DNA from: Psychroflexus maritimus
GTDB taxonomy: Bacteria > Bacteroidota > Bacteroidia > Flavobacteriales > Flavobacteriaceae
NCBI RefSeq assembly: GCF_011089875.1
Contig: NZ_JAANAS010000001.1
Span: forward strand, 124,001 to 188,000
Direction of reading: 5' to 3'
Length of the DNA stretch: 64,000 bases
The position numbers and the translations under genes were made by a program. Below the pieces are notes generated by a model. The model saw only the letters and a list, made by a program, of their open reading frames with translations. It had not been told where the DNA came from and did not search any database. Below, piece after piece: positions 9,409 to 12,451 of the stretch (positions are counted from its first letter, which is position 1; each line of letters starts with the position of its first letter).

Positions 9409-9804
9409 TTAACAACAAAAACACAATGAGGTTGAATGTTTTTTACTGAAAATCAAATCATTCAACTTTACTTTAGATGGTGTAATTATTGTTTCAGGTA
9501 TCTTTAAGCCAACAGAATTTGCAATATTTAAATAATTTAGTTCATTAGGGTAACGTTTAAAATAATCACCAAAATATTTTTTTGTTTGAGTCTGAAGTGC
9601 TAAAAAAATATAGTTTTTAATTATTATAAGTTCTTTTTCTAGAAATTCAACTTCTTGTGAAGTTTTATCATCTAAATTTTTCAAGTCTATTAAAAGATTA
9701 ATATCCCCTTTTCTGTGAATAAAATATTTCACATCATTGATATTAATGATTTTTTTATTTACAGAAATAGAAAAATATGAATTAGCAATTTCTATATCTA
9801 TCAA
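9409..9804 (-). pseudogene. Truncated ATP-grasp peptide maturase fragment (grasp-with-spasm type)
   Basis: A 131-residue open frame beginning at a TTG, not an ATG. The frame is open a little further upstream, to about 9855, without a usable start. The content matches the N-terminal half of ATP-grasp RiPP maturases: NDVKYFIHRKGDINLLIDL, then a FLEKELIIIKNYIFLALQ helix. Next come KKYFGDYFKRYPNELNYLNIA and GLKIPETIITPSKVKL, the usual lead-in to the ATP-grasp fold. The ATP-binding domain itself is absent; the frame stops after SLCFCC and the next gene is the efflux adaptor. The expected first 50-60 residues are also missing. It is therefore an internal fragment and probably non-functional. Family assignment is from remembered motifs, not a search. 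Confidence 0.6.
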
Positions 9805-9986
9805 GTAAACTTTATCTTCATTTGTAGAGGTATTATAGTATCTGGTGCATGATGTTCAGCAAACCAATATCTTGAGAATCCTAGTATATCAGCTTTCTCT
9901 ACATATGAAAAGCTTTGATTCAAAAGATTTTCAGCTGTTTCATTCTCCAAATCAAAAATACCAAGGTCTAATATTCCAATATTCAT
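9801..9986 (-). pseudogene. 5' fragment of a luciferase-like flavin-dependent oxidoreductase
   Basis: 61 residues with a good N-terminus of LLM-class flavoenzymes: MNIGILDLGIFD, then YVEKADILGFSRYWFAEHH, which is the family's GFxRYWxAEHH block. After HAPD the sequence (TIIPLQMKIKFT) no longer resembles the family, and the frame ends where the ATP-grasp fragment's frame takes over. The remaining 270 or so residues of a normal enzyme are missing, so this is a truncated gene joined to the next fragment. Its start overlaps the stop of the upstream fusion gene by four bases. In RiPP and NRPS clusters such enzymes act as tailoring oxidoreductases; that role is inferred here from neighbours only. 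Confidence 0.6.
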
Positions 9987-11428
9987 AATCTTGTATAAGG
10001 TTTAGTATCCTTGACTATAACCAAAGCATCAAAATCTTCTTCTATAATTGAATCGTAATAATGACCATAAATCCTGCATTTATTTTTATTGTCCATGTTG
10101 GTTAGATGATAAGGATTGTTAGAGTTAAAACTTAAAAAATAAATAGAATCTTTATAAGCATGGTCGTTAAAAGATTCTGTTGCTAGATACTCTAAAGCCT
10201 CTTCTTTAGGTTTTTTAAGCTTCTTGTCGAACCACAAAAACCTTTTCTTCTTTCCATTATATGAGCTATAAGCAATAAAATAATACTCGTTTCCATATCT
10301 CTTATTTAGCTCATCTCCTAGAGAAATTATATTCTTATTTTTGAAATATTTTGATGCATTAGGCTTTTTTCTAAAATGTGTAGAAGAACCCCATAAAACT
10401 ATTTTGCCGTATATAGGACTTAAACTATCTTTTAAAAAACTAATGTTTTTACCCATTTCATAATCTCTTAAATTATTTATGTCGTGGTGCTTGTCTAAAC
10501 TAATTCTTTTTGCATCTGCAATAATATTTTTTAAGGTTTGTGTCAAAATCATTTTTGAAGTGGCTTCCATTTCAACTTTCTCTAAATGATTTACTATTTT
10601 ATTTGTATGGTTGATAATATAATCTTTTTGAATATCATTTTTTAGCTTTAAATGATAAGAACTTTTTGTGACTAACTTTTTCAAATATTCAAAGTAAACT
10701 TCATCATTTATTAAACTTAAATCGATCTCAGGTAATTCAGTTTTCAGGAAATCTTTAAAATTATCTACCGTATTTTCTCCTGAGAATTTGGTTTCAAATC
10801 CAATAATTAGAATAGAGTCTTTTTTTTTGTTCATTTCCTTTACATACTCAAAAAGTTCATATTTTTCTGTGCATGCTAGCATGTTATACATACCTTGAAA
10901 TATTGGATTAGGATTATCTGTAGCTAAAAATTTTCTATACCCATAGTAAACTTCAAATAGATTAGATTCAAAAGCAACTATGCCAAATCCTTTTTGCTGG
11001 TGTAACTCTTTAATTAGATGAATACGTTCTGAGTTGATAGTTCCTTCAAAATGAGTAGGATCTCCTAAAGCTACAATTTTTACTCTATCATCTAATTGCT
11101 TAGCGATTTCAAAATTTATTTGAGAGTTAATCTCAAAGCTGTTTAAAATAAACGTCGAAAAGAATAAAATTAAATATTTGAATAGGTATGGTTTATGGTA
11201 AAATCTTGTTGCTTTACCATAAACCAGTAAATTGTAGAATAATTTAAACGGGTACACAAACGATACCTTTACAGGAGTGTGAACAAGTTTTTTTGACCCA
11301 CAAACAATTAATCTACTGCCTGTTAAAGCTAATTCGTCCTGTGATGCAGAACCTCCATTTATAATTAGCTTTTGTTTGTCGTTTAAGGAAACTATTCTTT
11401 CCCTATTTAATTTGAGTTTTTTTTTCAT
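9983..11428 (-). CDS. RiPP precursor leader/core fused in frame to an erythromycin-esterase-like domain
   Basis: 481 residues of composite look. Residues 1-26 (MKKKLKLNRERIVSLNDKQ, then INGG) match the Bacteroidota GG-type natural-product leader. Residues 27-47 hold Ser, Thr and Cys (LALTGSRLIVCGSKK) like a modifiable core. A hydrophobic segment (about 82-97) follows, and residues about 105-480 resemble erythromycin esterase (PF05139 family). That domain carries GDPTH (122-126), FES (Glu154) and WGSSTH (His351) at the positions of the family's catalytic Glu/His residues, although the first Glu is replaced by Asp. There is no other Met before residue 180. The esterase domain therefore has no ATG of its own, and the fusion looks like a deletion product. 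Activity on macrolides is not implied. Confidence 0.65.
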   Translation of the reverse strand: MKKKLKLNRERIVSLNDKQKLIINGGSASQDELALTGSRLIVCGSKKLVHTPVKVSFVYPFKLFYNLLVYGKATRFYHKPYLFKYLILFFSTFILNSFEINSQINFEIAKQLDDRVKIVALGDPTHFEGTINSERIHLIKELHQQKGFGIVAFESNLFEVYYGYRKFLATDNPNPIFQGMYNMLACTEKYELFEYVKEMNKKKDSILIIGFETKFSGENTVDNFKDFLKTELPEIDLSLINDEVYFEYLKKLVTKSSYHLKLKNDIQKDYIINHTNKIVNHLEKVEMEATSKMILTQTLKNIIADAKRISLDKHHDINNLRDYEMGKNISFLKDSLSPIYGKIVLWGSSTHFRKKPNASKYFKNKNIISLGDELNKRYGNEYYFIAYSSYNGKKKRFLWFDKKLKKPKEEALEYLATESFNDHAYKDSIYFLSFNSNNPYHLTNMDNKNKCRIYGHYYDSIIEEDFDALVIVKDTKPYTRL

Positions 11429-11487
11429 TTGTAAATATTTTGTTTTCCCCTACTCATTCAAGACTTTTCGGTTTACGCCATAAAATA

Positions 11488-12057
11488 TCACATATGTTCA
11501 TTAAGCTCAAGAATATCTATAAGTGCAGACACTTCATCAACTTCTGTATTTTTATTAAAAGGTTTTCCATAGGTCATCCTGTAAAATCTGTTCAAGTAAA
11601 GAAGAAACGAACTTTCTTTAATATCTTGATTGTGATAAGCATTATTCAAATAATTGAAATTTTTTAATCTAGCTTCTTTGCTATCACTATGGTGTATAAT
11701 TAAAAATGGAGTGTAAGCTGCGATTTCACCATAAACAGACTTAGAAGGATAACCGTATTTTTCTAAAAAATATTCGATTTTAAGCAAATTTATAGCATCA
11801 ATTTCATTGTTCTCCCTAATACAATTTTTATGTTCAATAGAATCTAATCCATTAGCTACAATCAATCCTGCACATATTTCTCTTATAGTCTGATCGCTTT
11901 TAAAAATGCTTTCAAGATAGCTTTGCTTTTGGTATTGTGTAGTTAAGTCATCAATTTCTTTTATCTCAGCACCAGTTAATTTAAACTCATCTACTACGTG
12001 ATTACAACTAGCTGTCATCATAAATAAAATCAACAACAATTTAATTTGTTTTTCCAT
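11488..12057 (-). CDS. Lipoprotein resembling DUF6624 proteins
   Basis: A 189-residue lipoprotein starting at the ATG at 12057 (MEKQIKLLLILFMMTASC, lipobox Cys at 18). A TTG-led extension from 12072 adds only five residues and is not preferred. The body has the pattern seen in DUF6624 proteins: an early DQTIRE, a central asparagine/leucine segment (AINLLKIEYFLEKYGYPSKSVYG written in pieces), a FLIIHHSD block and a C-terminal LYLNRFYRMTYGKPF. Function of the family is unknown. It lies 59 bases upstream of the RiPP fusion gene in the same direction and may share its transcript. Confidence 0.5.
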   Translation of the reverse strand: MEKQIKLLLILFMMTASCNHVVDEFKLTGAEIKEIDDLTTQYQKQSYLESIFKSDQTIREICAGLIVANGLDSIEHKNCIRENNEIDAINLLKIEYFLEKYGYPSKSVYGEIAAYTPFLIIHHSDSKEARLKNFNYLNNAYHNQDIKESSFLLYLNRFYRMTYGKPFNKNTEVDEVSALIDILELNEHM

Positions 12058-12451
12058 ATTAATTAATGTCAAAAATTATCACCATCAGTTTAGATTTCAG
12101 TTTCCTTTTTGTTTACATTCCAAAACTAACGTATAAAAGTCATAAAAATAAACTTTTTATTTGCAGATTTTTTGCAGATTTATGCAAGTTTTGTGCAATT
12201 AGTGTTAAAATTTGAGGGGTGGTGGCTTGTTTGGTGTAGGGTGATGGGTGTTTGGTAATTGATGTTGTCCCGTATCGCTTCACTCACGGGATTAATTCAA
12301 TTACGAAATTAAAATTTCTATTTCATTGAAGGTGTTGGGTGACTGTAATTGTGATAAAAAGACATAATCCTAAAGTCATTATACAGAATTATTTGGTTCA
12401 CGTAGAAAAGCATCTGTCGCAAAAAAAACAGTTTCAATACACAAAAATAGG
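12058..12451. other. Non-coding stretch with a CCCGT...ACGGG imperfect palindrome
   Basis: No convincing gene on either strand. Bases 12210-12270 are unusually G/T-rich on the plus strand against an A/T-rich background. They are followed by CCCGT at about 12271 and ACGGG at about 12288, which form a short stem. The same CCCGT...ACGGG bracket occurs in the segment between the two tRNA-Lys tails (about 26401-26450). This may be a dispersed palindromic repeat of the genome; with only two examples this is weak. Confidence 0.35.

Follow-up and report, generated by a model that had tools for sequence, protein, structure and literature searches.

The window (the whole 64,000-nt stretch analyzed, from contig NZ_JAANAS010000001.1 of Psychroflexus maritimus) carries on its minus strand a single 481-codon frame with an ATG start, which the ORF listing places at 9983–11428. 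It opens with a GG leader and a short core-like stretch, passes through a hydrophobic stretch resembling a signal peptide, and closes with a complete PF05139 domain; a hairpin lies inside the reading frame:

11351–11428, minus strand: putative GG leader, residues 1–26, ending in NGG and carrying an L-x-L-x-R-x5-L pattern (NF038153 match near the cut-off)
11255–11350, minus strand: probable former core peptide and precursor C-terminus, residues 27 to about 58 (from codon usage over residues 27–45; the end estimated from the stop-to-hairpin distance in relatives)
11189–11226, minus strand: perfect hairpin within the reading frame, 14-bp stem and 10-nt loop, codons 68 to 80 (read as a former intergenic element)
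11120–11188, minus strand: hydrophobic, signal-peptide-like stretch of the esterase, residues 81–103 (by eye)
9986–11119, minus strand: esterase-like domain, residues 104–481, with the PF05139 match at 143–475 (Pfam profile)

An earlier, sequence-only reading had described these coordinates as one continuous frame without a new ATG. This is confirmed: codon 1 is the sole ATG among the first 120 codons, where the only in-frame GTG, TTG, or CTG codons are GTG58 and CTG68. Its Ser/Thr/Cys-bearing stretch after the GG is present as regards Ser and Thr, but a single Cys precedes the signal-like stretch.

The N-terminus resembles a class I lanthipeptide leader. NF038153 (NCBIfam, class I lanthipeptide leader L1a) matched residues 1–26 at 20.4 bits with the whole protein as query, below the cut-off of 22, at 24.2 bits with residues 1–103 alone, and at 25.1 bits in the genome search; a custom profile built from 14 leaders scored the same stretch at 14.3 bits (E 0.008 among 3908 frames). 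The match was thus obtained repeatedly, but it is borderline, with NF038153 scores lying on both sides of the cut-off. According to PMC7268733, a number of Bacteroidetes class I LanA peptides have an LxLxKx5L leader pattern; many of these have a GG end and are often accompanied by a C39 peptidase. The window leader fits this pattern with Arg replacing Lys, and shares the GG end and the NF038153 match with those clusters.

A leader on a protein of this size is singular in our samples. NF038153 profile searches placed at least 86 leaders in 397 genomes of the family and at least 76 in 395 genomes of the class, counts that are lower bounds in leader-rich genomes (19 candidates were scored there). 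Both samples include the window and have no other place in common, which leaves 160 other places. All 160 sit in open frames of 46–145 aa; the window's open frame is 488 aa. A LanA gene is short and ends soon after its core, and the 481-codon frame does not. The sequence-only reading had called for a search for other proteins joining a GG leader to a PF05139 domain. Scanning 3908 stop-to-stop frames of at least 25 aa from 50 esterase loci with the 14-leader profile (some loci overlap, and three are copies of the fusion itself) yielded no leader on any other esterase frame.

The remainder of the frame is a full-length esterase-like domain. PF05139 aligns from profile position 1 to 358 of 358 on residues 143–475 (E 9.7e-16; 58.8 bits against a cut-off of 26.4), and most near-invariant residues are kept, among them H126, E154, G210, R321, D322, and H351. 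The earlier description of a complete domain with its His and Glu motifs thus stands for profile coverage and for H126, E154, and H351, but the window has Asp (D123) in place of the GE..H Glu, at a position where 45 of the 47 aligned letters are E. Asp212 is likewise replaced by Glu. Both changes, E123 to D and D212 to E, affect near-invariant positions and are confined, among 48 aligned rows, to the window and its second copy (described below). A 14-sequence profile (the window domain plus 13 relatives) matched the solved structures 2rad/3b55 and 2qgm, which carry the name succinoglycan biosynthesis protein, and EreC (6xcq/6xcs). The sole PDB match obtained with the single sequence was weak (E 0.43) and was taken as chance. 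The window protein differs from the PF05139 family of these structures in the two substitutions and in its 103-residue N-terminal extension with the RiPP leader. Several separate esterase relatives begin with a hydrophobic stretch like residues 81–103 of the fused frame.

Two gene fragments adjoin the frame, both downstream of it:

9801–9986, minus strand: truncated LLM-class oxidoreductase gene, 61 aa, whose ATG overlaps the stop codon of the fusion (TIGR03558, E 1.8e-8, profile 3–48 of 325)
9409–9834, minus strand: fragment of a grasp-with-spasm ATP-grasp maturase, profile 35–154 of 318 (TIGR04192, E 1.1e-9, 38 bits where the full-length cut-off is 230)

Against PF00296, the truncated oxidoreductase scored 20.2 bits, below the cut-off of 27.9. 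GC content is 27.3% over 9409–12072 vs. 32.8% over the window. The lipoprotein and efflux genes on either side of this region adjoin each other at the corresponding place in a further genome (G012), and another (G011) has other genes there. The interval from efflux operon to lipoprotein gene (9409–12072) is thus a variable site: In two other species of the genus (L086 and L087), it is occupied by other genes or by none. The stretch looks like an island with the remains of a RiPP cluster.

The fused frame recurs intact in a second species of the genus, a Flavobacteriaceae MAG (G002, contig PXFS01000044.1), at 99% protein identity. The two loci share one segment:

9820–11485, no strand assigned: segment common to the window and the G002 locus (L017) by DNA alignment, 98.98% identical, with different flanking DNA at both ends

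The fumC genes of the two genomes are only 81% identical (19% different), so the segment moved recently, either from one to the other or from a third source. An IS3-like transposase lies beside the G002 copy; the element occupies L017 1780–2995, after the truncated oxidoreductase, where the window copy goes on into the maturase fragment. In the same two loci, 40 bp at window positions 12259–12298, which include a short palindrome (CCCG...CGGG), recur at L017 3296–3335 with 95% identity and are perhaps a dispersed repeat. A 38-aa fragment upstream of the fusion (L017 1–120) resembles, by eye, the start of an ATP-grasp maturase, but we do not assign it as one: It had no NCBIfam match, and its only Pfam match was weak and unrelated.

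Because a second species carries the same frame, the fusion can hardly be an assembly error. Each source is a draft genome of many contigs, but two genomes that share the frame, differ in seven codons, and have different flanks leave an assembly or sequencing artefact a negligible probability. Five of the seven codon differences are nonsynonymous and two synonymous (about 1166 and 277 sites), and none falls in the first 113 codons; these changes are too few to show or exclude selection.

Beyond this pair, relatives are distant. The G002 contig was the only close relative in a search of the genome collection that reaches close relatives only, and protein matches besides the window and G002 showed 19–37% identity among 395 class genomes and 149 relatives. 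The ancestor of the fusion is not seen among them, since the nearest relatives of the fused protein are about 22–24% identical. A plasmid search returned eight records; identity stayed below 60% in all of them, and in no record did a single place cover 80% of the query. The viral contigs searched showed no relative.

The two halves exist as separate neighboring genes elsewhere. At four loci from three other Bacteroidota genomes, an NF038153 precursor lies immediately upstream of, and on the same strand as, a PF05139 gene (L079, L084, L067, and L085, from G736, G799, and G813, the last 62% complete). L085 has two precursors, and all five precursors pass the NF038153 cut-off. These pairs account for 4 of the 24 non-window esterase places in the 395 class genomes; a fifth place, L063, lies between LanC and LanB, and the remaining 19 showed no leader, LanC, or LanB by profile within about 1.5 kb on each side. 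Two of the loci extend into clusters in the order precursor, esterase, LanC, LanB, C39-transporter:

L088 2540–10240: cluster around L079
L089 2410–10107: cluster around L084

In both, the ORF after the C39-transporter appears HlyD-like by eye. At L067, LanC follows the esterase, with no LanB visible by eye beyond LanC (L090); no LanC was found beside L085 in the flanking DNA examined.

This association has a limited distribution. Six class genomes other than the window's have both a leader and an esterase match; the two are adjacent in G736, G799, and G813 and not in G533, G662, and G721. Within the window's own family, 30 of the 86 leader places were inspected as loci (L018–L047), and only the window's own had an esterase in the flanking DNA examined. 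Four other family genomes have both a leader and an esterase (397 and 299 genomes searched), far apart or on different contigs. PF05139 genes are therefore recurrent but not general in Bacteroidota GG-leader lanthipeptide clusters, as adjacency occurs in some class genomes but was unseen within the window's family. Esterase-like genes of PF05139 beside GG-leader precursors, or between LanC and LanB, occur at loci of several Bacteroidota families. Elsewhere, an esterase gene is preceded by a short peptide (L004 2575–2742) whose leader-like N-terminus ends in NGG; the peptide matches no known leader family.

A FastTree tree of the 48 aligned rows—those left once window-frame duplicates (L030, L058, L017), identical sequences, and partial matches weaker than E 1e-50 had been removed—joins the window pair to L079 as its sister (support 0.80), and the window branch is long. 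Esterases from lanthipeptide loci are not gathered in a single clade: L063 stands apart from L079 plus the window, as does the group L067/L084/L085. Because these branch elsewhere, cluster membership of the esterases has arisen or been lost more than once.

The hairpin in the linker suggests how the two genes were joined. Perfect stems of at least 13 bp with a loop of 3–12 nt number four in the 64-kb window, and the three besides the linker hairpin lie between ORFs of at least 130 aa. Folding of the linker region gave a z of −2.21, with 2 of 200 shuffles as good. In L079, the closest tree relative, a 16-bp hairpin, the sole perfect stem of at least 11 bp at that locus, starts 15 nt past the precursor stop and precedes the esterase; the GG-to-hairpin distance is 122 nt there vs. 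124 nt in the window. At L084, a stem of 9 bp lies 23 nt past the precursor stop, before the esterase, and the first precursor of L085 is followed soon past its stop by a 13-bp stem, before the second precursor. Between precursor and esterase at L067, and between the second L085 precursor and its esterase, there is no perfect stem of at least 8 bp, although folding, done without shuffles, gives imperfect stems in these spacers.

The L079 spacer also indicates how small the step may have been. Its esterase frame is free of stops from nt 1300, before the precursor stop, to the esterase ATG at 1381, hairpin included; because an L079-type spacer is already open in the esterase frame, one small change would suffice for fusion. 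Judged from these sequences, the simplest reading of the join is that the precursor stop was lost, through a point change or a small frameshift, while the spacer stayed in place and no large deletion occurred. The sequence-only reading had suggested that a deletion joined a precursor gene to a neighboring esterase gene. Its neighboring genes are found, separate and adjacent, at four loci in three relatives; its deletion is set aside because the spacer hairpin remains. Of the evidence that it had named against its own reading, separate genes in relatives were found and a clear deletion point was not. A larger deletion that brought a precursor next to a distant esterase gene is quite improbable: The neighborhood is rearranged, with truncated genes and an insertion element by the G002 copy, but both genes are adjacent in some relatives, and the hairpin is kept at the L079 distance.

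Codon usage, scored against 18 window genes, lends this fusion account weak support. Frame 0 is favored over residues 27–45 (0.54 bits per codon) and in the PF05139 domain (0.31 to 0.62 bits per codon). Over residues 46–103, frame 0 is near zero and other frames are equal or higher in part. The leader itself scores 0.12 bits per codon only, and in hydrophobic stretches low scores have causes of their own.

The esterase might alternatively be translated alone from an internal start, in which case the continuous frame with the precursor would give no product. Between codon 1 and the signal-like stretch, GTG58, upstream of the hairpin, is the sole in-frame ATG, GTG, or TTG; the esterases of separate relatives start just ahead of their hydrophobic stretch. 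A start at GTG58 would nevertheless precede the hairpin, unlike those of L079 and L084, and nothing separates this codon from translation entering from codon 1; we consider such a start unlikely.

The machinery that would act on a leader was sought in both fusion-bearing genomes, G000 (99.97% complete) and G002 (90% complete). Neither of the two matched C39 peptidase, which was matched in all five other genomes of the same search, and neither matched LanC (PF05147), found in four of those five. LanB (PF04738) was likewise matched in neither, a weak absence given that no control genome matched it. The genome search for a complete grasp-with-spasm maturase (TIGR04192) returned none; this absence is weak too, as the same search missed the window's known fragment. 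L088 and L089 show the precursor–esterase order together with LanC, LanB, and a C39 transporter. In the window genome, by contrast, the searches turned up neither LanC nor C39 and, less surely, no LanB.

These results bear on the idea, also raised by the sequence-only reading, that the leader serves as a working recognition or export tag, such that a maturase or transporter recognizes, modifies, or cleaves the N-terminus of a large protein. In favor of a tag, the two genomes have the same leader pattern and GG, and the seven codon differences all fall beyond codon 113. Against it, the adjoining maturase-like genes are fragments, and a signal-like stretch intervenes between leader and domain. 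With C39 and LanC found in neither genome, the tag is unsupported, and we set it aside as very improbable.

The frame is probably a relic fusion of neighboring lanthipeptide-cluster genes, a GG-leader precursor and a following secreted PF05139 esterase-like gene. Under this relic account, the precursor would have lost its stop, or shifted frame just ahead of it; the spacer and hairpin would now be read through into the esterase, whose own ATG vanished. With the surrounding cluster broken and no maturation partners found in the genome, the fused leader has no known partner. If expressed, the product would be an esterase-like protein with a long N-terminal extension before an internal signal-like stretch, and cleavage there would discard leader and core. 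The kind of mutation, and the expression, export, and activity of the fused frame, are points we infer. A stop-free 481-codon frame, kept residues, and near-identity in two species are features that a plain relic need not show. The frame could instead be a selected gene, in which a mobile segment spreads the esterase together with the former leader and core in equal amounts, parted by signal peptidase, and in which the core remnant or the esterase would serve as immunity or defense against neighbors' lanthipeptides; we regard this as quite unlikely.

In the borosin OphMA, a RiPP precursor is fused to its own enzyme, and the core is the substrate of the fused methyltransferase. The window frame resembles such proteins in holding precursor and enzyme in one chain, but its esterase is not seen acting on its own N-terminus. 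The window differs from Bacteroidetes class I lanthipeptide clusters in having precursor and esterase in a single frame. A parallel in gene content comes from gammaproteobacterial graspetide loci, for which PMC8939145 mentions an erythromycin esterase relative whose function is called unclear, with modification or resistance guessed. An esterase homologue lies beside RiPP genes in those loci as in the window, which keeps an ATP-grasp maturase fragment. Unlike the window, the loci named in PMC8939145 are gammaproteobacterial, and precursor, ATP-grasp enzyme, peptidase, and esterase homologue are separate parts.

The literature searched holds no description of PF05139 esterases in Bacteroidota lanthipeptide clusters. 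PF05139 and lantibiotic occur together in no paper of that search, and erythromycin esterase, lanthipeptide, and Bacteroidetes occur together only in PMC8939145. No word beginning with "esterase" occurs in PMC7268733 or PMC10352776.

For genome mining, the locus illustrates that a leader-bearing large protein can arise without a new leader use, through a short spacer already open in the frame of the next gene, and it is a caution for those who meet leaders on large proteins. The wider finding is that PF05139 esterase-like proteins are recurrent members of some Bacteroidota GG-leader lanthipeptide clusters. The question that graspetide loci raised about the role of the esterase now also stands for these clusters, and in those of the L088/L089 type a role of PF05139 in modification, immunity, or processing is directly testable.
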